In this document: piece after piece, positions 4,871-47,531 of the stretch
How the letters are laid out: each line of letters opens with the position of its first letter
Numbering within the stretch: the first letter of the stretch is position 1
NCBI GenBank assembly: GCA_020073005.1
Contig: JAIQFX010000040.1
Coordinates: 1-49,117 of the forward strand
From: Terriglobia bacterium
GTDB lineage: Bacteria > Acidobacteriota > Vicinamibacteria > Vicinamibacterales > CAVVIG01
Length of the DNA: 49,117 bases
Reading direction: 5' to 3'
Program-made: the position numbers and the translations under genes
Notes under the pieces: generated by a model
Seen by the model: only the letters and a program-made list of their open reading frames with translations
What the model was told of the DNA's origin: nothing
Databases searched by the model: none

Positions 4871-5575
4871 CTAGCCGAGCGGAGAGCCTTCGAACCAGGC
4901 CCTGACGCGCGGCGCGACCTCGGGCGGCAGCTGCGCGAGGTCACGCTCGAGGCGCCGGAGATCGTTGATCGTGTCGACGTCGTAGTCGCCGCGGATCATC
5001 CGGAGCTCGACGCCGAGGCGATCGGCGGCGCGCAGTGTCTCGTCGAGCACCTCGTCACTGCCCCAGCGAATCCCCTCGAACAGACCGCGATGCAGCGTTG
5101 TCATCCCGATGAGGTAGTACCCGCCATCGTCTGACGGCCCCAGAACGACGCCGTCGTGCTTGCGCAGAAGCTCGGACGCCTCGGAGACGTGCTCGGCGCT
5201 CAGCAGCGGGACGTCGCTGCCGACGAGCATCGCGCCGACGTACTCGCCGCTCTGCAGCAAGTGATCCAGCGCCGCGGCCATGCGCTGACCGAGATCGCCG
5301 TCGACTTGCGCCACCATCGGCAGCGCACGATCGACCAGCGCCGCGATCTCGGGCCCGCCATCGGCCGGAGTGAAGAACACGAACGGATCGGCGTCGGCCG
5401 CGGCCGCCGCGACGGCGAGCGTATCGCGCAGGAGCGCCTCGCGCAATCCGCGCAGACGTGGTTCCGGAATGTCCGAGGCGAGCCGCGTCTTGCCGGGACT
5501 CGACGGCGCGCGCGCCATCACGCCGATGGCAAGGGGACGGGAGTCGGAGATAGGGGGGACGGGAGTCGGTTTCAA
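4871..5575 (-). CDS. TIGR04282-type glycosyltransferase (DUF2064)
   Basis: 234 residues from TTG 5575, which overlaps the msrQ stop (TTGA). The core has the nucleotidyl/glycosyl-transferase pattern FARAP-like VMARAPSSPGKTRL, then VGSDVPLL, GPSDDGGYYLIG and DYDVDTINDL. This family is known to occur with TIGR04283 glycosyltransferases, and a member of that family lies 1.8 kb upstream in the same direction. Residues 1-14 (MKPTPVPPISDSRP) come from a GGGGACGGGAGTCGG repeat, so the original start was probably closer to the LAIGVMARAP strand. Substrate unknown. Confidence 0.85.
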   Translation of the reverse strand: MKPTPVPPISDSRPLAIGVMARAPSSPGKTRLASDIPEPRLRGLREALLRDTLAVAAAAADADPFVFFTPADGGPEIAALVDRALPMVAQVDGDLGQRMAAALDHLLQSGEYVGAMLVGSDVPLLSAEHVSEASELLRKHDGVVLGPSDDGGYYLIGMTTLHRGLFEGIRWGSDEVLDETLRAADRLGVELRMIRGDYDVDTINDLRRLERDLAQLPPEVAPRVRAWFEGSPLG

Positions 5576-5653
5576 GAACTTTCGCCGGATTTCAGCGGGG
5601 CTCGGCGCCAGAGGATACGACTCCCGGCCCCCCTGATACCGACTCCCGTCCCC
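5533..5653. repeat. GGGGACGGGAGTCGG repeat cluster with inverted end
   Basis: Two direct copies (5533-5547, 5555-5569) and one inverted copy (5639-5653) border the msrQ end and the TIGR04282 start. The element encodes both the last residues of MsrQ and the first residues of the glycosyltransferase. A relative (GGGGACGGGTCTCGG) lies inside dnaE2. Confidence 0.8.
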
Positions 5654-6267
5654 TTTAGCAGACGAAACAGGAAAAGTGTCGCGACGACGGCGCCGTAGGT
5701 GTACGGCCGGCGGACGTCAGCCTTCACCAGCCACCAGTAATGCAGGACGCCGAGGCACACTGTCCCGTACACGAGGCGATGCAGCTGATTCCATCTCTTC
5801 CCGCCGAGCCGCCGGATCATTCCCGCCGTCGACGTCGCCGCGAGCGGCACCATCGTCGACCACGCCGTGAAGCCGACGGTGATGAACGGCCGCTTGTAGA
5901 TGTCCTCCCCGACCGACTTCGCGAGATTCTGAACGGTCGTCCACGCGACGATGCCGTTCGGGAAATCGAGACCGGCGAACCGATCGGCAATCACGTACGT
6001 CAGGAAGTGCAGCGTGCCGTAGAAGAACGCGAAGAGGCCGGCCATCCGCCGGAACTTGATCAGCGGATTCCAGCCGGTCAGGCGCCGCAGCGGCGTGATC
6101 GCGAGCGTCGCGCAGAGAAACCGTAATGTCCAGACGCCGGTTTCGTTCGTGAGATCGCTGAGCGGGTTCGCGCTGAGATTGCCGGTCAGCCCGGCCCAGA
6201 CGAGCCAGGCGACTGGACCAAGACTCGCGACAAAGACGATGGGCTTAAGAACGCGAGTGATGAACAT
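5572..6267 (-). CDS. msrQ: MsrQ haem-binding membrane subunit
   Basis: 231 residues from ATG 6267 (MFITRVLKPIVF). A longer frame to 6324 only adds an AATCCGC repeat and was not used. Six hydrophobic segments of the ferric-reductase-like fold are visible, with haem-ligand histidines in GTLHFLTYV, NQLHRLVYG and VLHYWW. MsrQ passes electrons from the quinone pool or flavin reductase to periplasmic MsrP, which repairs methionine sulfoxide. It follows msrP in the same direction after about 100 bases filled with repeats. Residues after FRLLKGTG are encoded by the GGGGACGGGAGTCGG repeat and replace the natural tail. Confidence 0.92.
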   Translation of the reverse strand: MFITRVLKPIVFVASLGPVAWLVWAGLTGNLSANPLSDLTNETGVWTLRFLCATLAITPLRRLTGWNPLIKFRRMAGLFAFFYGTLHFLTYVIADRFAGLDFPNGIVAWTTVQNLAKSVGEDIYKRPFITVGFTAWSTMVPLAATSTAGMIRRLGGKRWNQLHRLVYGTVCLGVLHYWWLVKADVRRPYTYGAVVATLFLFRLLKGTGVGIRGAGSRILWRRAPLKSGESS

Positions 6268-6357
6268 TGCGGATTGAGGAATGCGGATTGCGGATTGGAG
6301 AGTCAATTGTGAAATCGGCTTCACCTATCCGCGTTCCGCAATCCTCAATCCGCAATG
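6268..6357. repeat. AATCCGCA-type inverted repeat between msrP and msrQ
   Basis: One arm (6268-6299) is a run of ATTGCGGATTG units, the other (about 6333-6357) the complementary CCGCAATCCTCAATCCGC. The same family is found at 33826-33857 and 33977-34013. It could fold in the msrP-msrQ transcript. Confidence 0.75.
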
Positions 6358-6366
6358 TGTCCCGGC

Positions 6367-12230: not shown

Positions 12231-12353
12231 GTAGCGCGAGTCTCGCCCTGTAGCGCGAGCCTCGCCCTGTAGCGCGAGCCTCGCCCTGTAGCGCGAGCCT
12301 TTCAGGCGAGCGTAATCTCAGAGCGGTTGTAGCGCGAGCCTTTCAGGCGAGCG
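12231..12353 (+). repeat. REP array upstream of the RAYT gene
   Basis: Three 19-base units (12231-12249, 12250-12268, 12269-12287) of GTAGCGCGAGCCTCGCCCT type are followed by two full 25-base REPs (12288-12312 and 12329-12353). A full REP has the head GTAG, then arms CGCGAGCC and GGCGAGCG around TTTCA. The stem pairs three outer and four inner base pairs (the inner set closed by T-A) around tandem G-A mismatches, the imperfect hairpin expected of a REP. Confidence 0.9.
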
Positions 12354-12382
12354 ATGGATCGCGGTTTGCTGATGCGTCCCGC

Positions 12383-12877
12383 ATGCCCCATCGACGTCCG
12401 CCGCGCCTGCCCCAGACGGAGTACCTCGGCATCCGCCGGATCCTGTTGACCATGTGCACGTTCGACCGGCTTCCCTACTTCACGTCCCCGTCCGCGGTTG
12501 AAGCGACCCATGGTGAGCTTCTGCGTACTGCCGCGGCGTACGATGTGGAAGTTATTGCGTACTGCTTCATGCCCGATCACCTCCACGCGCTGTTTCACGG
12601 TGCCGGCGCCGCGACCCACCTGGAGAAGTGTGCAGCGATGTTCCGTCAGCGCTCAGGCCACGCGCATCGTCGCCATTCACGCATGCGATTGTGGCAGGAG
12701 GGATATCACGACCGGATTCTGCGCGACGAGGAAAGCACGTTTGACGTCGTGAGCTACATCGTCGGGAATCCCGTTCGGGCCGGCCTCTGCTCCGACGTTC
12801 GCTTGTATCCGTACGCGGGATCAAGTCGATACTCGCTCGAGGAACTTGCTGTATTCGTGCAGTGGAGGCCACACTGA
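12383..12877 (+). CDS. RAYT: REP-associated tyrosine transposase
   Basis: 164 residues of the IS200/Y1 HUH superfamily. The HUH metal site is H66-L-H68 in FMPDHLHALF; the catalytic tyrosine is most likely Y125 in VVSYIVGNPVRAGL; LWQEGYHDRIL is a further hallmark of RAYTs. Such enzymes nick and rejoin single-stranded REP hairpins next to a GTAG head and are usually single copy and not self-mobile. Direct REPs lie 29 bases upstream and inverted REPs begin one base after the stop, so the gene is boxed as in bacterial REPtrons. No transposon ends of an IS are present. The ATG has no strong RBS. Confidence 0.93.
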   Translation: MPHRRPPRLPQTEYLGIRRILLTMCTFDRLPYFTSPSAVEATHGELLRTAAAYDVEVIAYCFMPDHLHALFHGAGAATHLEKCAAMFRQRSGHAHRRHSRMRLWQEGYHDRILRDEESTFDVVSYIVGNPVRAGLCSDVRLYPYAGSSRYSLEELAVFVQWRPH

Positions 12878-12878
12878 T

Positions 12879-12934
12879 CGCTCGCCTGAAAGGCTCGCGC
12901 TACAGTTCCTGCTCGCCTGCAAGGCTCGCGCTAT
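12879..12934 (-). repeat. Inverted REPs downstream of the RAYT gene
   Basis: 12879-12903 is a perfect inverted copy of the 25-base REP. 12910-12934 is a decayed copy (GTAG changed to ATAG, one loop base changed). Confidence 0.9.
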
Positions 12935-12962
12935 AACTGCCGCTCGCGCCACGACCGTCGTT

Positions 12963-14553: not shown

Positions 14554-14578
14554 TGCTCGCCTGAAAGGCTCGCGCTAC
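14554..14578 (-). repeat. REP that supplies a stop codon
   Basis: A 25-base REP (one end base changed) lies between the two dehydrogenase genes. Its GTAG head contains the TAG stop (14575-14577) of the small subunit gene. Confidence 0.85.
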
Positions 14579-15141
14579 AGGCTCGCCGGACGTTTGGTCG
14601 TGATCTGAATCGGCCGGCACACCTCACGGTTGATCGCGGCGTGGTAGCAGAGATCGTTCGCCTCGCTGCTTCTGAAGTAGTGCGCCATCAGATCGGCGAT
14701 GACGTGCTGGCCCAGCGGCCTCTGCGGCAGGTTCCGCACGCCGGCGTTCGTGAACGCCGCGTCGAGGAGCGCGCGCCGCGCGTCCAGATCGAGCGCGCTC
14801 CAGCGGCCGCCGCGCGCGCGGGCGGCGGCCTCGAGCGACGACAGCTGCGCGAGGTACGCCGGCACGGGCGACGCGCCGGACCGCTGCAGCCGCGGATGGC
14901 CGTACCCGTGCGCCAGCGCGACGCCTTCACGATAGCCGCGCGTCCAGGCGACGAACTTGTCGACCTCCGTCCGCAGTTGCGCGGCGCCGATCGACGCCGG
15001 CAGCACGGTCGGCGCGATCTCGTGCAGCAATGCGATCGCCTCCCGCGTCAGCTCGCGCGGCTGCGCGAAGACGCGCAGGCGGCTGAACGGCAGGACGGCG
15101 GGCAGCGCGGCGATCCACTGAATGAGCGTGCGTCGTTTCAT
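14575..15141 (-). CDS. Gluconate 2-dehydrogenase subunit 3-like protein
   Basis: 188 residues. The Tat-like leader MKRRTLIQWIAALPAV is followed by a helical domain of the gluconate 2-dehydrogenase subunit 3 family (LLHEIAPTVLP, LAQLSSLEA, LMAHYFRSSEANDLCY). This subunit escorts the FAD subunit across the membrane and helps maturation. The stop is the TAG in the REP, so the last few residues (RPASL) may have been set by the repeat's arrival. Upstream there is a divergent radical SAM gene 45 bases away. Confidence 0.85.
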   Translation of the reverse strand: MKRRTLIQWIAALPAVLPFSRLRVFAQPRELTREAIALLHEIAPTVLPASIGAAQLRTEVDKFVAWTRGYREGVALAHGYGHPRLQRSGASPVPAYLAQLSSLEAAARARGGRWSALDLDARRALLDAAFTNAGVRNLPQRPLGQHVIADLMAHYFRSSEANDLCYHAAINREVCRPIQITTKRPASL

Positions 15142-28051: not shown

Positions 28052-31000
28052 TCAGTAAAAATCGTGGGCGTCGAACTCGATCTTCGTGCCGCCCAGGCCC
28101 TGCACCTGCTCGGCGCGGATCGACGTCACGCCTTCCTGATTCTGCAGCACGCCGTCCACGATCAAGAACGGCTCTTCGATGATGACGAGGCGGTCGCGCG
28201 CGAACAGATCGGGCCGGACGATGATGTTGGCGACGCCGGTTTCGTCCTCGAGCGTGAGGAAGACGAAGCCTTTCGCCGTGCCGGGCCGCTGGCGCGTGAT
28301 GACCATGCCGGCGACGCGCACGCGCCGTCCCTGCCGCGCCGATTTCAGATCGATCGCGCGCAGGATGCCGCGCATCGCCAACTCCTCGCGCCGCAGCGCC
28401 ATCGGATGGCGGCCGATGGTCAGCCCCATGCCGGCGTAGTCGGCGACGAGGCGCTCGGATTCGGTCATGGGTTTCAACGGACAGTCAGGTGGCTGGGGGC
28501 TGGTGGCTGGGGACTGGAGAGAAGAATTAACCGCGGAGAACGCTGAGTCCGCAGAGACAGTTGTTTGGTTTTCCAAGAAACTCTCCGCGCTCTCTGCGTT
28601 CTCCGCGGTTAAATCTTCGTCGAAAAGCTCTCCGCTGGGCCGAATCGCTCGCTCGGCCTGCCAGAGCGCGGACCGGCGGTCATAGCCGAACGCGTTGAGC
28701 GCGCCGACGTCGGCGAGCGTGACGACTTCGTCGCGCCGCAGGCCCGTCCGCGCGACGAGCTCGTCGAGCGAGGAAAAGCGGCGTTGCGGTTGTAGCGCGA
28801 GCCTTTCAGGCGAGCGTGTCGTCCACTCGCACGAGCAGACGTTGCAGAACATCCCGCCTTCATCCGTCGGCTCGAGCATGGACTCATCGTCGCAGCCGCA
28901 CTTTGGGCACAGCGGTTGGCTGGCTTGCCCGCCGAAGCCGGCGAGCCGGCGAAGGCGGGTGGCTGGTGGCTGGCCACGCTCGCCTGAAAGGCTCGCGCTA
29001 CGAGACCGAGGTCCTGAAAGGCTCGCGCTACGAGACCGAGGTCCTGAAAGGCTCGCGCTACAAATCGTTCGGCCGGCTTGTTCGCGCAATCCGCTCACGT
29101 AGCGCAGGCCGAGGCGGATGCCGCCGTCGCCTTCGACCGTGCAGTTCCAGTCCGACACCTGCACGTCGATCGGATGGAACCGCACGCCGCGGCGCTGCGC
29201 GTCCTTGACGAGCGTCGCCGGATGGTAGAACCCCATCGGCTGGTTGTTGAGCAGCGCCGTGTAGAACGCCGACGGGTAATGCATCTTGAGATACGCGCTC
29301 GCGTACGCCAGCAGCGCGAAGCTCGCCGCGTGCGACTCGGGGAAGCCGTACAGCGCGAACGACGAGATCGACAGGACGATCTGATCGGCGGCGGCGCCGG
29401 CGATCCCGTTCTTCGCCATCCCCTCGCGCAGCGCGCCCTCGATCTGTTTCATCCGGCGTTCGGATCGCTTGAATCCCATCGCGCGGCGCAGATCTTCAGC
29501 CTGGCCGCCGGTGAATCCCGCGGCGACCATCGCGATCCGCAGCAGCTGCTCCTGGAACAGCGGCATGCCGAGCGTCCGCTTCAGGATCGGCTCGAGCGAC
29601 GGGTGCGCGTACTGCACGGGCTCGCGCCCCGCGCGGCGATTCAGGTACGGATGCACCATCTGGCCGACGATCGGCCCGGGCCGGATGAGCGCGACCTCGA
29701 CCACGAGATCGTAGAAGCACGACGGCTTGAGCCGCGGCAGCGTCGCCATCTGCGCGCGCGACTCGACTTGGAAGACGCCGATGGTGTCGGCCTCCTGCAG
29801 CATCTTGTAGACGGCGGGATCGTCAGCGGGAAGATGCGCGAGATCGATATGGGGACGGGTCTCGGTGAGGAGGGGACGGGTTTCCCTGTCGGACACATCG
29901 TGAGACCCGTCCCCTCGCGGCCGAGACCCGTCCCCATTCACCAGCGCGAGCGATTCCTGAATGACGGCCATCATCCCGAGTCCGAGCAGATCGACTTTCA
30001 CGATCCCCATGTCCGCGCAATCGTCCTTGTCCCACTGCACGACGACGCGGCCGGGCATGCTGGCGTTTTCGAGCGGGACGACGGCGTCGAGCTGGCCCTG
30101 GCAGATCACCATCCCGCCCGAGTGCTGGCCGAGATGCCGCGGCAGATCCTGCATCTCCTTCCACAACCGCGCGAAGTGCCGCACGCGCTCGGACTGCAGA
30201 TCGAGGCCGACGGAGGCGAGATGCCGTGGCATCGTCTCGTTCGGATCGTTGAACTCGAAGTGATTCAGGATTTTCGCGAGCCGGTCGACCTGCGTGGGAT
30301 CGAAGCCGAGCACCTTGCCCACTTCGCGCGCCGCGCTCCGCCCGCGGTACGTGATCACGTTGGCCGTCATGGCCGCGCCCAGCCGTCCGTACTTCTCGTA
30401 CACGTGCTGGATGACGCGCTCGCGCCGATCGCCGCTCGGCAGATCGAGATCGATGTCCGGCCACTCGCCGCGCTCCTCGGAGAGAAACCGCTCGAACAGC
30501 AGATCCATCCCGACCGGATCGACCGCCGTGATGCCGAGGCTGTAGCACACGGCGCTGTTGGCCGCGCTGCCGCGGCCCTGCACGAGGACGTCGTGCTGCC
30601 GGCAGAAATTGACGATGTCCCAGACGATGAGGAAGTAGCCGGCGAGGTTCAGCTTCTCGATGAGATCGAGCTCGCGCGCGATCTGCGCGCGGGCGCGGTC
30701 GTGATACGGGCGATAGCGCTCGCGCGCGCCGACCTCGGTGATCTTGCGGAGAAACGACGCCTGCGTTTCGCCGCGCGGGACGGGATAGTCCGGAAACCGG
30801 TAGCCGAGATCCGCCATCGTGTACTGCAGGCGATCGGCGAGCTCGGCCGTGCGCGCGACCGCGTCCGGCATGTCGCGGAACAATTCCGCCATGTCGCCGG
30901 GCGGCTTCAGGTACCGCTCGGCGTTGGGCGCGAGCCGCCGTCCCGCCGCGGCGAGATCGGTGTGATGGTGGATGCACGTGAGGACGTCGAAGAGCGGCCG

Positions 31001-31657
31001 CGCGGCCGGCGCCGCGAAGCGGACGCCGTTGGCCGCCACGATCGGCACGCGAAACGCGCCGGCGAGCGCGACGAGCGCGGCGTTGTCGTGCTCTTCGTCG
31101 CGCCGGCAATGGCGCTGCAGCTCGACGTACACGTTGCCGCGGCCGAACACGCCGACGAGCCGATCGACCAGCCCGCCGACGCCGTGGCGGCGGCCGTCGA
31201 GCGCGGCGCGTCCCGCGAGCGCGACGAGGCCGCCGGTCCGGCCGTCGAGTTCCTCGAGCGAGAGCGCGCCCTCGCCTTTCGGCGCGCGCAGTTTCATGCG
31301 CGTGACGAGCTGGCAGAGATTGCGGTACCCCTCCTGCGATTCGCAGAGGACCGGCAGAATGATGTTGGGCTGGTGAGGCGGGTAAGGCGGGTGGGGCTGG
31401 TGGAGAAAACGTTCTTCCCTACCTGCCTCACCCGCCCCATCCGTCCTCATCGTCAGCTCCGCGCCGATGATCGCTTTCAGACCGGCGGCGCGCGCCGCCT
31501 TGTGAAATCTCGGCGCGCCGTACACGCCGTCGCGATCGAGCAGCGCGACGGCGGGATAGCCGAGATCGGCCGCGCGATCGACGAGCGCTTCAGGAAGCGA
31601 GGCGCCTTGCAGAAAGCTGAAGGCGGAGGCTGCGTGGAGCTCGATGTAGGAGGACAC
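28052..31657 (-). CDS. dnaE2: Error-prone DNA polymerase DnaE2 with in-frame insertions
   Basis: 1201 residues, about 130-150 above the family norm. PHP-like domain (YIELHAASAFSFLQGAS) first; the polymerase core has GRGSAANSAVCYSLG, the catalytic PDIDLDLPSG pair and VKVDLLGLGMM; the C-terminus has the OB-fold (GMVITRQRPGTAKG). Four stretches are repeat-derived: about residues 69-96, 571-602, 861-954 and 1011-1056. They fall between conserved blocks. The third carries a CPKC...CNVC zinc-ribbon-like module. DnaE2 works with ImuA and ImuB in SOS mutagenesis. It starts at GTG 31657 and is last of the imuA-imuB-dinB-like-dnaE2 series. Whether the inserts affect activity is open; motifs are intact. 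Confidence 0.92.
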   Translation of the reverse strand: MSSYIELHAASAFSFLQGASLPEALVDRAADLGYPAVALLDRDGVYGAPRFHKAARAAGLKAIIGAELTMRTDGAGEAGREERFLHQPHPPYPPHQPNIILPVLCESQEGYRNLCQLVTRMKLRAPKGEGALSLEELDGRTGGLVALAGRAALDGRRHGVGGLVDRLVGVFGRGNVYVELQRHCRRDEEHDNAALVALAGAFRVPIVAANGVRFAAPAARPLFDVLTCIHHHTDLAAAGRRLAPNAERYLKPPGDMAELFRDMPDAVARTAELADRLQYTMADLGYRFPDYPVPRGETQASFLRKITEVGARERYRPYHDRARAQIARELDLIEKLNLAGYFLIVWDIVNFCRQHDVLVQGRGSAANSAVCYSLGITAVDPVGMDLLFERFLSEERGEWPDIDLDLPSGDRRERVIQHVYEKYGRLGAAMTANVITYRGRSAAREVGKVLGFDPTQVDRLAKILNHFEFNDPNETMPRHLASVGLDLQSERVRHFARLWKEMQDLPRHLGQHSGGMVICQGQLDAVVPLENASMPGRVVVQWDKDDCADMGIVKVDLLGLGMMAVIQESLALVNGDGSRPRGDGSHDVSDRETRPLLTETRPHIDLAHLPADDPAVYKMLQEADTIGVFQVESRAQMATLPRLKPSCFYDLVVEVALIRPGPIVGQMVHPYLNRRAGREPVQYAHPSLEPILKRTLGMPLFQEQLLRIAMVAAGFTGGQAEDLRRAMGFKRSERRMKQIEGALREGMAKNGIAGAAADQIVLSISSFALYGFPESHAASFALLAYASAYLKMHYPSAFYTALLNNQPMGFYHPATLVKDAQRRGVRFHPIDVQVSDWNCTVEGDGGIRLGLRYVSGLREQAGRTICSASLSGPRSRSASLSGPRSRSASLSGERGQPPATRLRRLAGFGGQASQPLCPKCGCDDESMLEPTDEGGMFCNVCSCEWTTRSPERLALQPQRRFSSLDELVARTGLRRDEVVTLADVGALNAFGYDRRSALWQAERAIRPSGELFDEDLTAENAESAESFLENQTTVSADSAFSAVNSSLQSPATSPQPPDCPLKPMTESERLVADYAGMGLTIGRHPMALRREELAMRGILRAIDLKSARQGRRVRVAGMVITRQRPGTAKGFVFLTLEDETGVANIIVRPDLFARDRLVIIEEPFLIVDGVLQNQEGVTSIRAEQVQGLGGTKIEFDAHDFY
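28486..28612. repeat. Composite repeat in dnaE2 (GGCTGGTG run plus 17-bp inverted repeat)
   Basis: A GGCTGGTGGCTGGGGACTGG run (28486-28518) is followed by perfect 17-base arms TTAACCGCGGAGAACGC (28527-28543) and its complement (28596-28612). It is translated as a LTAENAESAE-type insert. Confidence 0.85.
28792..29061. repeat. Inverted REP pair and 30-bp tandem repeats in dnaE2
   Basis: A plus-strand REP (28792-28816) and a perfect inverted REP (28977-29001) enclose 160 bases coding for the zinc-ribbon-like module. After the second REP, a 30-base unit (CCTGAAAGGCTCGCGCTAC plus CGAGACCGAGGT-type spacer) occurs at 28983, 29013 and 29043. Everything stays in the dnaE2 frame. Confidence 0.9.
29851..29935. 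repeat. GGGGACGGGTCTCGG element in dnaE2
   Basis: 85 bases with perfect 15-base terminal inverted repeats (29851-29865 and 29921-29935) and two inner partial copies. In frame, between the polymerase middle blocks. Confidence 0.9.
31367..31438. repeat. GGTGAGGCGGGT element in the PHP part of dnaE2
   Basis: Arms GGTGAGGCGGGTAAGGCGG and its imperfect complement ACCTGCCTCACCCGCC surround a short middle. Translated as a Gly/Glu then His/Pro-rich loop between GAELTMR and ILPVLCES. Confidence 0.85.
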
Positions 31658-31687
31658 GGAAGAGATCCACTACGGAAGCAAAACATT

Positions 31688-31766
31688 AACCACGGAGGAC
31701 ACTGAGGACACGGAGGTAAAACCAGTACAGGTATTCTTCTCAGTGTCCTCCGTGTCCTCCGTGGTT
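31688..31766. repeat. ACCACGGAGGACAC inverted repeat before dnaE2
   Basis: Perfect 15-base arms at 31688-31702 and 31752-31766 (AACCACGGAGGACAC and complement) lie between dinB-like and dnaE2. In the transcript this would fold into a long hairpin, which could attenuate dnaE2 or protect its message. Confidence 0.8.
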
Positions 31767-31773
31767 TTCTTCT

Positions 31774-32274
31774 TTACATGCCTTCATCGGCCGAGGGCCC
31801 GTAGATCGACGGCACGGGAATGTTGTTGAGCCGGAGGTACACGCTCAACTGGCCGCGGTGGTGAATCACGTGATTCATGACGAAGCTGCGGACGCAGACG
31901 GCGCGCGGCATCGTGAACTGCACCTTCGCGCCGGCCTTCAGCGACCAGGGCACGAAATACTCGGCGTCGCTCTTCGTCAGCGCCGCGCGCGCCTTGACGA
32001 CGTTCGCGTCGAACCACGACAGCAGCTCGGTCCGCGACTTCGCCACCTGGTTCGCCTGCTCGGGCGTCACGCTCATCACGTCGAACTCCGTCGCGTTCAT
32101 CGTCACGTCGGTCCAGCCGAGCATGTTGGCGATGTGACTGGCCAGCGCGCCCATCGACCACGATTTCTCGTGCGGCTTCCAGCCCAGCCTGTCGTCGGGC
32201 ACGCGCTCCAGGACGCGCCGGGTCGTCGCCATTTCCTGATCGAATTCTGGGAGAAGGGAATCGGTGATTGCCAT
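31774..32274 (-). CDS. DinB/YfiT-superfamily protein
   Basis: 166 residues from ATG 32274 with GGAG five bases ahead. It has the four-helix DinB pattern: N-terminal helix with LLPEFDQEMATTRRVLERVP, the first metal His in MGALASHIANMLGW, and the paired His in MNHVIHHRGQLSVYL. Members are metal-binding proteins, several of them DNA-damage-inducible in Bacillus or bacillithiol/mycothiol S-transferases; the function of this one is unknown. It is not the Y-family polymerase also called DinB. Its place between imuB and dnaE2 suggests expression with the SOS cassette. Confidence 0.88.
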   Translation of the reverse strand: MAITDSLLPEFDQEMATTRRVLERVPDDRLGWKPHEKSWSMGALASHIANMLGWTDVTMNATEFDVMSVTPEQANQVAKSRTELLSWFDANVVKARAALTKSDAEYFVPWSLKAGAKVQFTMPRAVCVRSFVMNHVIHHRGQLSVYLRLNNIPVPSIYGPSADEGM

Positions 32275-32289
32275 AAGCACTCCTTCGGT

Positions 32290-32334
32290 GAATTGGGTGA
32301 TTGGGTAATTGGGTAATTGGGTAATTGAGTGATT
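32290..32334 (+). repeat. TTGGGTAA 9-base tandem repeat
   Basis: Five imperfect units of GGGTAATTG or GGGTGATTG fill the gap between the dinB-like start and the imuB stop. Confidence 0.85.
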
Positions 32335-32337
32335 GCT

Positions 32338-33867
32338 TCAATCGGCTATCGCGTCGATGAACCAGCCCTGTCTGGCGCGATCCTGGAAAATTCTATAGAC
32401 GGCGCCGTCGGCGAGCGCGACGTCCCATTCGTCGCGATCCCACGGGGACTGGTGGCTGGTGGCTGGTGGCTGGTGACTGGCGATGGGAACGCGCTCTTCC
32501 CCACCCGGCTTACCTGCTTCACCTGCCCACCAGTCTCCAGACGTTCTCCACGGTCCCACGCACTGCGTCACCTGCCCGCCCGCGAAGCCACGGCGATCCG
32601 TCGTCACGCGCGCGGGCCGGCCGTCGACGACGGCGACGCGCGCGGGGACGGGTTGACGGCAGCGACGAAGAGCGGAGGCTAGTGGCTGGGGGCTGGGGGC
32701 TGGTGATTCAGCACAATCGAACGCAGAGACCGCAGAGTTCGCAGAGACGGAAACATTATTCACTCTGCGTTCTCCGCGATCTCTGCGTTCAACGTTGTAA
32801 TCAGTCGTGAACGGGGTCATCGCGAACGCGCCGGGCCGGTGCGAGTCGACTACGGCGGGCGCGCCGAAGCGGTCCTGCCCCATCAGCGCGCCGAGCCGCG
32901 CGAGAAGCGTCGAGAGCTGCTCGGGCGTCGGGTGCGCGCGCGTGAAGAGCGTGTGCTGCAGCACGCGGCCCGGCGTGGGATCGATGACGAGGGTGACGCG
33001 ATCGATGGCGCCGCCGGGCGGATGCGCCTCGAGGTCGAGCAGCGCGAGCGTCCGGAGCGCGCGCACGTCGCGCATCGGCGACGGCAGTTCCAGCCGGCGC
33101 GCGACGGTTTCCCGCTCTGAGCACGAGTTCGTGACGAGCCGCAGGAGGACGTGCAGCACCGCCGCCCCGCGATCGCGCCGCTCGAGACGCGTCGAGAGCG
33201 GCTCGAGGAGCCGCGTGAGCACGAACGACAGCGGCTCGAGGTCTTCGATGGGCCACTCGAGATCGAGCGACGCGTCGAATCGTTCCTCGGGCAGCGCGGG
33301 AACGAGCGGCCAGCGGTCCTCACCGCGCGCCGTCGCCTGCCACGCGAGCGCCTGCTTTCCGAGCCGCGCGGTGAGCTCGCCTGCGGGCAGCGCTGCCAGC
33401 TCGCCGAGCGTGCTGAGGCCCCAACGTTTAACCGCGGAGAGCGCAGAGGATCTACTCGGCGGGCTCTGCGGTTCAACGTGAATGCGTTCCAGAAAGTCGA
33501 TCGGAATCGGCGCGAGCGCGGCGGCTTCGTCGCCGGGCGCGACAACGGTCAATCCGGGCCGCGCGAGCGCGAGGACCATCGCGGCTGTACGCGTGGAGGC
33601 GATCGCCACGTGCGCGCGCACGCCGCGGGCCGCGAGCTCCCGGCGCACGGCGTCGCCGATCGCGCGCGCGTCGCCGAACATGCGACGGAGCCCGCTGACG
33701 TCGATCGCCACGAGATCGTCGCCGTGACACTGAAAGCGCGGCGAGAATTCGTGCGCGACGGCGGCGAGCGTGCCATCGCCAGCCGGCCGAGGCGAGCCCG
33801 GCGGCTGATAGAGGCACGCGTACGATTGCGGAGTGAGGATTGCGGATTGCGGATTGGTCTCAGGCAC
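32338..33867 (-). CDS. imuB: ImuB, Y-family polymerase-like mutasome protein
   Basis: 509 residues. After a repeat-made start (PETNPQSAILTPQS) comes the ImuB pattern: YACLYQPPG, FSPRFQCHGDDLVAIDVSGL, HVAIASTRTAAMVLA, WGLSTLGELAALP and the C-terminal GPWRTSG...WDRDEWDVALADG. The catalytic acidic residues of true Y polymerases are absent, as is usual for ImuB, which is a hub contacting DnaE2 and the clamp. Three more repeat insertions lie at about 33425-33478, 32678-32794 and 32443-32533; the last splits GPWRTSGDWW from WDRDEW, normally a few residues apart. It overlaps the end of imuA by eight bases. Confidence 0.9.
   Translation of the reverse strand: MPETNPQSAILTPQSYACLYQPPGSPRPAGDGTLAAVAHEFSPRFQCHGDDLVAIDVSGLRRMFGDARAIGDAVRRELAARGVRAHVAIASTRTAAMVLALARPGLTVVAPGDEAAALAPIPIDFLERIHVEPQSPPSRSSALSAVKRWGLSTLGELAALPAGELTARLGKQALAWQATARGEDRWPLVPALPEERFDASLDLEWPIEDLEPLSFVLTRLLEPLSTRLERRDRGAAVLHVLLRLVTNSCSERETVARRLELPSPMRDVRALRTLALLDLEAHPPGGAIDRVTLVIDPTPGRVLQHTLFTRAHPTPEQLSTLLARLGALMGQDRFGAPAVVDSHRPGAFAMTPFTTDYNVERRDRGERRVNNVSVSANSAVSAFDCAESPAPSPQPLASALRRCRQPVPARVAVVDGRPARVTTDRRGFAGGQVTQCVGPWRTSGDWWAGEAGKPGGEERVPIASHQPPATSHQSPWDRDEWDVALADGAVYRIFQDRARQGWFIDAIAD
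32443..32794. repeat. GGCTGGTG and CGCAGAGACC repeats in imuB
   Basis: GGCTGGTG run and GGTGAGGCGGGT-like piece at 32443-32533; a GGCTGGGG run plus GCAGAGACCGCAGAG arms and complement (CTCTGCGTTCTCCGCG) at 32678-32794. Both are translated in frame. Confidence 0.8.
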
Positions 33868-34013
33868 TGTGGGCCGCGACCGTGGGAAACGCCACTGCCG
33901 CCTCCTCGCGTGAATGCGCGCGAGCGCGAACGATCCGCGCCCCGACGTTCAGCCCGTCGAACACGCGGTCGCCGAACCTCAATCCGCAATCCGCATTCCG
34001 CATTCCGCATTGC
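33826..34013. repeat. AATCCGCA repeats at the imuA-imuB border
   Basis: ATTGCGGATTGCGGATTGG at about 33836-33855 forms the first codons of imuB; AATCCGCAATCCGCATTCC units at 33977-34013 are read in the last third of imuA as CGMRNADCGLRFG. Confidence 0.8.
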
Positions 34014-34618
34014 ACCGTCAGTCCCGCCGAGCTTCGCGCCATCGCTTCGCTCCCGACCAGCACGCACGCCGTCTGGCTGCCTTCGATCATTCGCTGCAGC
34101 CGCAGCCAGGTGGTGAACGGCAGCCGGCGCACGGCGTCGGACGGCGCCTCGGCCACGTCGAAGGCGACGACGCCGAAATTGCCGGCCTGCAGCACGAGCG
34201 CGATGGCGCGGATCGCCTGCTCGAGCGCGCGCTGGTTGAGATCGCGGCACATCCCGGGACTCATGACGACGTGCCCGCGGACCCAGAGCAGCCGATCGAG
34301 ATCGACGCCGGCGGCCGCCGCCGACTCGACGTCGAGCATGTCGAGCGCGTCGACCAGCGCCACGAGCTCGCCGCGCGCGGTGGCCGCGGCCAGCGTCCGC
34401 AGCAGGACGCTCGTGCGGCCCGACGATCGCGGGCCGACGAGCTCGGACAGCTGCCCGCGCGGAAACCCGCCGCCCAATCGCGCGTCCAAAGCGGTGATGC
34501 CCGAGGGCGCGACGGCGACGTCGTCACCTGGATTGACAGGCGGCAGCGACGTCGTCAGCGTGCGATCGAGCTGGCGGGCGCGCAGGAGCGATTCGAGATC
34601 AGCGCGGGCAAGCGGCAT
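33860..34618 (-). CDS. imuA: ImuA, RecA/SulA-like mutasome protein
   Basis: 252 residues. The RecA-like core has GITALDARLGGGFPRGQLSELVG with a diverged P-loop GPRSSGRTS, LVALVDALDMLD, and LRLQRMIEGSQTACVLVG. ImuA proteins help assemble DnaE2-ImuB mutasomes. A repeat-derived stretch (QCGMRNADCGLRFG, near residue 205) interrupts the C-terminal part. It is first in the cassette: a TATAGT box at 34649-34654 and a direct repeat between it and the ATG may be its promoter and operator. Confidence 0.88.
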   Translation of the reverse strand: MPLARADLESLLRARQLDRTLTTSLPPVNPGDDVAVAPSGITALDARLGGGFPRGQLSELVGPRSSGRTSVLLRTLAAATARGELVALVDALDMLDVESAAAAGVDLDRLLWVRGHVVMSPGMCRDLNQRALEQAIRAIALVLQAGNFGVVAFDVAEAPSDAVRRLPFTTWLRLQRMIEGSQTACVLVGSEAMARSSAGLTVQCGMRNADCGLRFGDRVFDGLNVGARIVRARAHSREEAAVAFPTVAAHSA

Positions 34619-47460: not shown

Positions 47461-47465
47461 TAGAG

Positions 47466-47531
47466 GCTGGGGACTGGGGACTAGGGGCTGGAAGAACAAT
47501 CCCCAGCCTCCGGCCTCCAGCCTCTGGCCCC
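47466..47531. repeat. GGCTGGGGACTGG inverted repeat
   Basis: GGCTGGGGACTGGGGACTAG on one side and the complement-type CCCCAGCCTCC...CCTCTGGCCCC on the other fill the gap between divergent starts of the DsbD-like and regulator genes. Confidence 0.75.

Follow-up and report, generated by a model that had tools for sequence, protein, structure and literature searches.

In-frame repeat elements in the ImuA-ImuB-DnaE2 mutasome genes of a Vicinamibacterales genome and its relatives

We analysed a 49,117-nt stretch of DNA (contig JAIQFX010000040.1 of assembly GCA_020073005.1, hereafter the window) from a Terriglobia bacterium of the order Vicinamibacterales, in which imuA, imuB and dnaE2, the genes of the ImuA-ImuB-DnaE2 mutasome, form one cassette. 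The cassette is a real, strong and repeated hot spot for inserts. In the window its genes carry short repeats of several kinds in frame, and in related genomes the same loops are filled by different repeats. The inserts exceed those of control proteins, including DnaE1, the replicative paralogue of DnaE2, and they coincide with predicted disorder. We consider it probable that in-frame insertions survive in the disordered loops of a mutagenic machine that is dispensable and used only episodically.

Repeat stretches in the mutasome genes

Ten repeat stretches were counted, partly by eye, within the cassette genes: five in dnaE2, four in imuB and one in imuA (Table 1). All are read through in frame, which bears out the preliminary description of the window, where at least eight such repeats without a stop had been claimed for the three genes. 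A scan with repeat words gave five, three and one internal stretches for dnaE2, imuB and imuA, respectively; the heptads at the N-terminus of ImuB were also matched, and were excluded by rule as lying less than 60 nt from the gene end. As a carrier of repeats, imuA is a weak member of the cassette. The kinds found comprise a GTAG repeat, the GGGGACGGG hairpin, a CGGAG hairpin, 7-base tandem units of the GGCTGGT and GGATTGC types, and a 9-base unit. As had been described, they lie between conserved blocks, including WRTSGDWW and WDRDEW in ImuB, and the alignments of relatives agree.

The cassette repeats had been described as matching intergenic hairpin repeats of the same window. Partners were found for most of them: the GTAG repeat at 12231-12355, 12879-12936 and 14555-14581, the GGGGACGGG hairpin at 5531-5655, the GGATTGC heptads at 6264-6358, the CGGAG hairpin at 31688-31766 and GGCTGGT-like heptads at 47462-47494. 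Some of these partners overlap gene ends and are not strictly intergenic. For the 9-mer hairpin at 31370-31446, no partner was found in the window outside the cassette; related 9-mers are present in relatives. Upon single-strand folding, the five larger elements, the spacer one included, gave strong hairpins with z-scores of -5.3 to -9.4. The single repetitive extragenic palindromic (REP) element, the REP triplet and two tandem stretches did not give strong hairpins (z from -1.1 to +1.5).

Table 1. Coordinates of repeat stretches, cassette genes and related features of the window (pLDDT, predicted local distance difference test; z, folding z-score).
Feature	Position	Strand	Location	Evidence or remark
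GGCTGGT-type heptads and CGGAG hairpin	28484-28618		dnaE2, between GELF and CPLKPMTE	z -9.4 for 28517-28618
GTAG REP	28786-28816		dnaE2	identical to 12323-12353; pLDDT <50 at model residues 946-956
Heptad stretch and three GTAG REPs	28948-29072		dnaE2, before zinc ribbon	word, k-mer and alignment evidence
GGGGACGGG hairpin	29849-29937		dnaE2, between ESLALVN and IDLAHLP	z -7.8
9-mer hairpin	31370-31446		dnaE2, PHP-domain loop	word scan; z -5.3
GGCTGGT heptads and 9-mer stretch	32447-32530		imuB, between WRTSGDWW and WDRDEW	pLDDT <50 at 450-453, 455-472
Heptads and CGGAG hairpin	32677-32796		imuB, between FAMTPF and LRRCRQP	pLDDT <50 at 357-395; z -5.3 for 32700-32796
Half CGGAG element	33424-33448		imuB, further loop also occupied in other genomes	word, k-mer and alignment evidence
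GGATTGC heptads	about 33822-33860		first codons of imuB	pLDDT <50 at 1-10
GGATTGC heptads	33975-34016		near imuA 3' end	word scan
CGGAG hairpin	31688-31766		spacer upstream of dnaE2	z -8.2
dnaE2	28052-31657	minus		1201 aa, error-prone DNA polymerase; NCBIfam NF004225 1218 bits, cut-off 939
DinB-superfamily gene	31774-32280	minus	between imuB and dnaE2	Pfam DinB 7e-15
imuB	32338-33867	minus		509 aa, Y-family polymerase relative
imuA	33860-34618	minus		252 aa; Pfam RecA match; NCBIfam ImuA_translesion 56 bits, below cut-off 150
GTAG REP array	12231-12355		one side of RAYT gene	
RAYT-like transposase gene (IS200-like Y1 family)	12383-12877	plus		Pfam PF01797
GTAG REPs	12879-12936		other side of RAYT gene	

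Excess of inserts over other genes

The genome of the window was sampled in 58 stretches (1,054,944 bp, 18 percent), and 790 genes were called with a simple hexamer gene finder, which overlooked some genes, e.g., that of the RAYT transposase. The cassette had been chosen by a reader who had noticed the repeats, so the p-values are not blind; in addition, some of the sampled contigs, e.g., C75, C73, C42 and C50, were picked after a repeat search. Fifteen repeat words gave 652 matches, compared with 94 for the reversed words. The matches group into 253 elements, of which 109 are intergenic, 65 lie at gene edges and 79 are internal to genes, with 60 nt or more to both ends. The five internal elements of dnaE2 are the most of any gene; imuB and the gene of LigD have three each and imuA has one. 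Since some of the scan words were derived from the cassette, the test was repeated with k-mers from intergenic DNA only, with the cassette masked. Clusters in the cassette numbered 8 against 1.2 expected at k=13, 7 against 0.68 at k=14, 5 against 0.29 at k=15 and 4 against 0.24 at k=16; at k=15, with matches kept 100 nt from gene ends, 5 clusters stood against 0.21 expected. Over the 1.05 Mb, intergenic words match the cassette 7 to 18 times above other genes, and dnaE2 and imuB rank first to third among the 790 genes. A looser k-mer test, trained also on coding DNA, gave 24 against 11.7, about twofold only; it was too noisy and was replaced by the intergenic-only library. A family-blind detector of inverted repeats found two in dnaE2 and 12 in 778 other genes.

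The family used for comparison consists of 27 genomes, with an ImuB match in 24, the window's own included; G022 has remnants only, and the match in G023 is distant. An insert was defined as at least 10 residues in the protein alignment, and inserts away from the ends were counted. Mutasome rows were stop-to-stop frames and control rows start-to-stop; 136 of the 346 control proteins fell into groups of under five and were uncounted. Rows cut by contig ends were kept (ImuB of L032; DnaE2 of L046, L047 and L050), and DnaE2 was left out for L031, L032 and L041 (absent or 74 aa); the loci L052 (decayed) and L053 (distant) were left out. With the window included, ImuB has 53 inserts in 22 proteins (4.31 per 1000 residues; 19 proteins with at least one), DnaE2 has 45 in 19 (2.13 per 1000; 17 with at least one), and ImuA has 4 in 22 (0.67 per 1000; 4 with at least one). 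The controls, 210 proteins of 21 families with 100,606 residues, have 18 inserts, or 0.18 per 1000. The earlier claim that the cassette has collected more repeats than other genes thus holds in its own genome and, independently, in relatives, with ImuA, which has inserts in 4 of 22 genomes, as the weaker part.

In DnaE1, one of the control families, 2 inserts were found in 16 proteins (0.11 per 1000 residues). The rate of DnaE2 is about 18- to 20-fold that of DnaE1, with the core fold common to both, which suggests that something besides the fold is decisive, either the use of the protein or the insertion itself. Divergence does not explain the excess, since controls of 45-60 percent identity have 0-1.05 inserts per 1000 residues. 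The group of major facilitator superfamily (MFS) transporters had no insert in 15 proteins. Frames are broken in imuB of L031, L040 and L051 and in dnaE2 of L049, some of the breaks being at repeat loops. When the frame-broken rows are left out, 38 inserts remain in 19 ImuB (3.7 per 1000) and 38 in 18 DnaE2 (1.9); when the window's own proteins are left out with them, the counts are 49 in 18 ImuB (4.9 per 1000) and 34 in 17 DnaE2 (1.8).

Among the called genes of relatives, the inverted-repeat detector found 7 elements in 18 dnaE2 genes, 1 in 395 other genes, and none in 12 imuB or 15 imuA genes. When full imuB frames were used for labelling, there were 4 in 34.7 kb of imuB, 7 in 59.4 kb of dnaE2 and 3 in 491 kb of other genes. 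At 0.12 per kb, dnaE2 and imuB of relatives have about the same density as intergenic DNA (0.10-0.18) and a lower one than short spacers (0.16-0.77), which fits tolerance of inserts. An excess over intergenic DNA had been considered as proof of targeting; this was dropped, as only the dnaE2 of the window, and not the relatives, lies above intergenic DNA and spacers.

Loop sites, predicted disorder and the origin of the inserts

With frame-broken rows excluded, most inserts fall at three or four sites per protein. In ImuB they are WRTSGxWW/WDRDEW, the RPGAF..PF block/LRRCRQP, and one or two loops further upstream; in DnaE2 they are the PHP domain, LALVN/IDLAHLP, the surroundings of the zinc ribbon, and GELF/CPLKPM. 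A single loop holds different repeats in different genomes, and at least seven types were seen by eye in the LALVN loop of DnaE2. This filling argues for repeated independent events or repeated replacement, not for one old insertion. Judging from the alignments, the CGGAG type at the GELF loop may go back to a single old insertion; it is present in five genomes or more. A zinc-ribbon-like block (CPKCGCDD...FCNxCxHxW, about 28836-28935 of the window), usual in acidobacterial DnaE2, stands beside one repeat site and is missing in L044; a look-up of one term in PMC3919608 gave no mention of such a block for DnaE2.

Length variation at these sites was also seen in 60 further acidobacterial loci (57 ImuB and 38 DnaE2; 80 loci minus 20 duplicates of family loci), some with visible repeats. 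The WW loop of ImuB spans 3-180 residues within the family and is at most 12 aa in 32 of 57 further acidobacterial homologues. Many of these homologues have short loops, so the segments are no ancient, conserved portion of the proteins. Had homologues from unrelated, repeat-free genomes contained the segments, the preliminary description would have been refuted; the short loops in other Acidobacteriota speak against this. It could be supposed that these are ordinary variable linkers of ImuB and DnaE2, in which the repeats arose by chance or by assembly error, as the length variation in other Acidobacteriota and the four broken frames of relatives would allow. We regard this as the least probable of the explanations. 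Of the 93 loops with 15 or more residues, 54 have a repeat signature (tandem, inverted or library), compared with 8 of the 93 windows matched to them within the genes, a result that contradicts the linker explanation for more than half of the long loops; identical words occur elsewhere in the genome, and the pattern recurs in many separate metagenome-assembled genomes. The signature test replaced a measure of 13-mer sharing, which failed (84 of 98 control windows were positive, compared with 62 of 98 inserts).

The AlphaFold2 model of ImuB has a mean pLDDT of 80.8. Values below 50 occur at residues 1-10, 357-395, 450-453 and 455-472, all of them repeat stretches, and 60 further residues, mostly within 301-360, have values of 50-70. 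The model of DnaE2 is poorer (mean 68.6), with 17 segments below 50. Five of these (73-93, 575-597, 869-910, 946-956 and 1009-1060), including the four longest, match the five repeat stretches; the other twelve are 3-11 residues long and lie off repeats.

This coincidence, together with the variable WW loop, makes tolerance of loops, which had been proposed earlier, the better of two causes and the most likely one; damage-coupled insertion is the bold alternative. Short self-spreading repeats of several unrelated kinds would land widely in genomes. Copies inside genes would mostly be purged, and those that keep the frame would survive in a few disordered loops of ImuB and DnaE2. They could survive there because the loops are flexible and the mutasome, used only episodically and losable, may be under purifying selection too weak for their removal. 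Dispensability of the mutasome is suggested by three genomes without an ImuB match (G003, G013 and G017; 98, 97 and 66 percent complete) and by G022, a genome of the same genus (locus L052), in which the cassette is decayed to an N-terminal piece of imuA and C-terminal pieces of imuB, with no full dnaE2 found. The number of inserts tracks the repeat load of the genome, with a Spearman coefficient of 0.54 (p 0.009) for n=22, among them six with incomplete genes, and of 0.50 (p 0.048) for a smaller set of n=16. Such a correlation is expected where repeats arrive continually and the cassette does not get rid of them.

The three genomes that lack a cassette match have 3 repeats in 229 kb, compared with 43 in 467 kb in 21 cassette bearers (the window's own genome excluded). 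These numbers would agree with a causal link in which the mutasome itself generates or spreads the repeats, akin to the link between mutagenic repair and repeat spread proposed in the preliminary description. We find such a link very improbable. G004 and G012, cassette-bearing sisters of two of the cassette-less genomes, have no repeat in 29 kb, and G022, with its decayed cassette, has 6 in 38 kb, per kb as many as the window's own genome. One of the cassette-less genomes, G017, is only 66 percent complete, and phylogeny explains the difference in repeats equally well. No link between mutagenic repair and repeat spread emerges from these counts.

The inserts could also be adaptive: selection would retain them for an effect of the longer loops on mutasome assembly or mutation rate. 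Recurrence is high, and some inserts look common to relatives; an NPQSA stretch, for example, lies at the beginning of ImuB in the window as well as in L032 and L033. In its available text, PMC3733652 proposes a hypermutator role for REP-tagged repair genes. The sequence, length and presence of the inserts vary freely, as in the WW loop, and many homologues are without long loops; adaptation is, in our opinion, distinctly unlikely.

Repeat inserts are not unique to the mutasome. In the sampled part of the genome, internal repeats were found in the repair genes of Ku (L103:12496-13533), UvrC (L103:14750-16627), a UvrA-like protein (L102:14679-17789) and LigD (L095:10944-13061). These are 4 of the 26 other genes with internal hits, against 0 of 30 length-matched controls (Fisher 0.04). 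The Pfam scan covered 26 of 27 internal-hit genes (L080 left out) and 30 of 40 drawn controls, at different cut-offs (1e-3 or 1e-12 for hit genes, 1e-15 for controls); one of the ten unscanned controls (L054:6837-9308) is a gyrase-A-like gene. In the family, LigD has 18 inserts in 20 proteins (13 affected) and UvrC has 15 in 22 (14 affected), 14 of them at one linker; both proteins were picked because the copy in the window's own genome carried inserts. The repair-gene excess is suggestive only.

These genes bear on the possibility of insertion preference, in which repeats move upon DNA damage via single-stranded intermediates into genes that are then transcribed, so that damage-induced repair genes collect them. 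REP transposases of the RAYT class work on single-stranded DNA. The four repair genes with repeats, the affected proteins of LigD and UvrC and the apparently enriched spacers of the cassette speak for such a preference. The excess is small, LigD and UvrC were chosen for their inserts, and the stretches with Ku, UvrC and the UvrA-like gene are from a contig picked after a repeat match. The neighbours of the cassette, i.e., the DinB-superfamily gene and the MFS gene, are without a word match, and the MFS group is free of inserts. Taken together, insertion preference is rather unlikely. We give slightly less credence still to its bolder form, in which repeat mobilisation would be coupled to DNA damage and the repeats would prefer repair genes switched on at that time (mutasome, Ku-LigD end joining, UvrA/UvrC). 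If it were true, the repair toolbox would carry a readable record of past damage, and with every insertion, loops would grow longer in the machinery that governs the mutation rate.

Several observations weigh against survival by tolerance. The repair-gene excess is not predicted by plain loop tolerance alone. The inverted-repeat density in the dnaE2 of the window (0.57 per kb) exceeds that of its own intergenic DNA (0.14) and short spacers, and the cassette spacers, with 3 inverted repeats in 1.02 kb, look rich, the numbers being tiny. No signature was found in 39 of the 93 long loops, so part of the loop variation is of other or older origin. The broken frames of relatives reflect decay by repeat change or assembly error; in the former case, insertions are not always harmless. 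The number of RAYT genes does not correlate with the number of inserts (rho -0.05), and RAYT number as a driver of inserts was dropped for this reason. Finally, tolerance is not separated from insertion preference by these data.

GTAG repeats, known repeat systems and neighbouring genes

The GTAG elements of dnaE2 (28786-28816 and 28983-29072) have the GTAG tag beside a palindrome, GTAGCGCGAGCCTTTCAGGC, with a GCCT..AGGC stem. Folding of a single copy is not stronger than that of shuffled sequences (z -0.8). With at most one mismatch, 156 copies were found in the window's own genome against none for the reversed pattern; elsewhere in the family there are 274 copies in G009, 40 and 9 in two genomes of the same genus, and none in 16 of 27. 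A RAYT-like gene in the window is flanked by the same GTAG repeat as in dnaE2, and 12231-12936 is a complete REPtron, with GTAG repeats on both flanks of the gene. From this arrangement, the RAYT gene is probably the mover of the GTAG kind, and the GTAG subset of inserts would have been moved by a transposase encoded 16 kb away. The window thus resembles known REPtrons in holding a RAYT gene between GTAG REPs and differs in that the REPtron accounts for the GTAG subset only. Among the heptad, 9-mer, CGGAG and GACGGG elements of the cassette, GTAG/CTAC is absent from 8 of 9 stretches, the spacer element included; the only CTAC lies inside 31370-31446, away from the hairpin foot. As these elements have no GTAG tag beside a palindrome, they were not classed as REPs.

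The short tandemly repeated repetitive (STRR) sequences of cyanobacteria are heptanucleotide repeats, i.e., dispersed 7-base tandem units that sometimes occur in genes. The heptads of the cassette are similar in unit length, the likeness being to a general description of STRR, and differ in that they are often paired as inverted arms. Rickettsia palindromic elements (RPE) are palindromes that reside in frame within numerous protein-coding genes. In the window's own genome, a GACGGG-type hairpin of about 46-48 bp was also observed in frame at several places (L099:7004-7049, L087:18957-19002, L054:8789-8836 and others), with enolase, pyruvate:ferredoxin oxidoreductase, a gyrase-A-like subunit, acyl-CoA dehydrogenase and others as hosts. 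In enolase, the oxidoreductase and the gyrase-A-like subunit its in-frame placement resembles that of RPE; the present case differs in the several unrelated kinds of repeats, in the phylum and in the strong concentration in one cassette. RPE are also mentioned in the available text of PMC3733652.

In that text, Di Nocera et al. (2013, PMC3733652) describe intragenic REPs of the GTAG and CGTC types, with many repair genes among the hosts, and name DnaE2, UvrA, RecBCD and a ligase. They weighed flexible loops against non-fortuitous targeting and doubted chance. Genes of one functional category carry REPs at different sites there, except for recB of two Xanthomonas (PMC3733652). The present inserts are alike in the GTAG-tagged repeats in coding frames, the repair-gene excess and the involvement of DnaE2. 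They differ from what is given there in that ImuB is also affected, that heptad, 9-mer, CGGAG and GACGGG elements occur besides REPs, and that the same loops are occupied in many genera and were counted against controls and DnaE1. The enterobacterial intragenic RU elements, as far as described in the accessible part of PMC2759123, are likewise small mobile repeats read as protein; their units are longer and resemble miniature inverted-repeat transposable elements.

Among the matches listed for the literature on ImuB, Acidobacteria and Vicinamibacter repeats, none described inserts in ImuB or such a pattern for Acidobacteria, and none had several kinds of repeats in common loops or a count relative to controls or DnaE1. 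The phenomenon is known in kind; new are ImuB, the many repeat kinds at shared loops and the paralogue-controlled count. The 2013 remark on REPs in repair genes becomes a measured excess with a clean paralogue control, and tolerance, targeting or adaptation is now a directly testable question. The inserts show how selfish DNA can create novel disordered segments of proteins, at recurring sites in numerous lineages.

The DinB-superfamily gene within the cassette had no cluster of intergenic k-mers and no repeat-word match inside it, and the MFS neighbour had no match in the word scan. An Rfam scan of the window at the gathering score gave one tRNA and nothing else. The three genes stand together and DnaE2 is of the error-prone subfamily, as required for the ImuA-ImuB-DnaE2 mutasome, with ImuA and ImuB below the model cut-offs. 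ImuB matches the NCBIfam Pol IV families below the curated cut-off and has no Pfam match; with its model, Foldseek retrieved the Y-family fold (E 3e-16, with low TM-scores). The ImuB of this group begins late, residues 38-312 corresponding to profile positions 93-365 of the Pol IV model, and from this alignment its N-terminal palm seems partly absent. In relatives, imuA orthologues adjoin imuB, and ImuA and ImuB are syntenic there.

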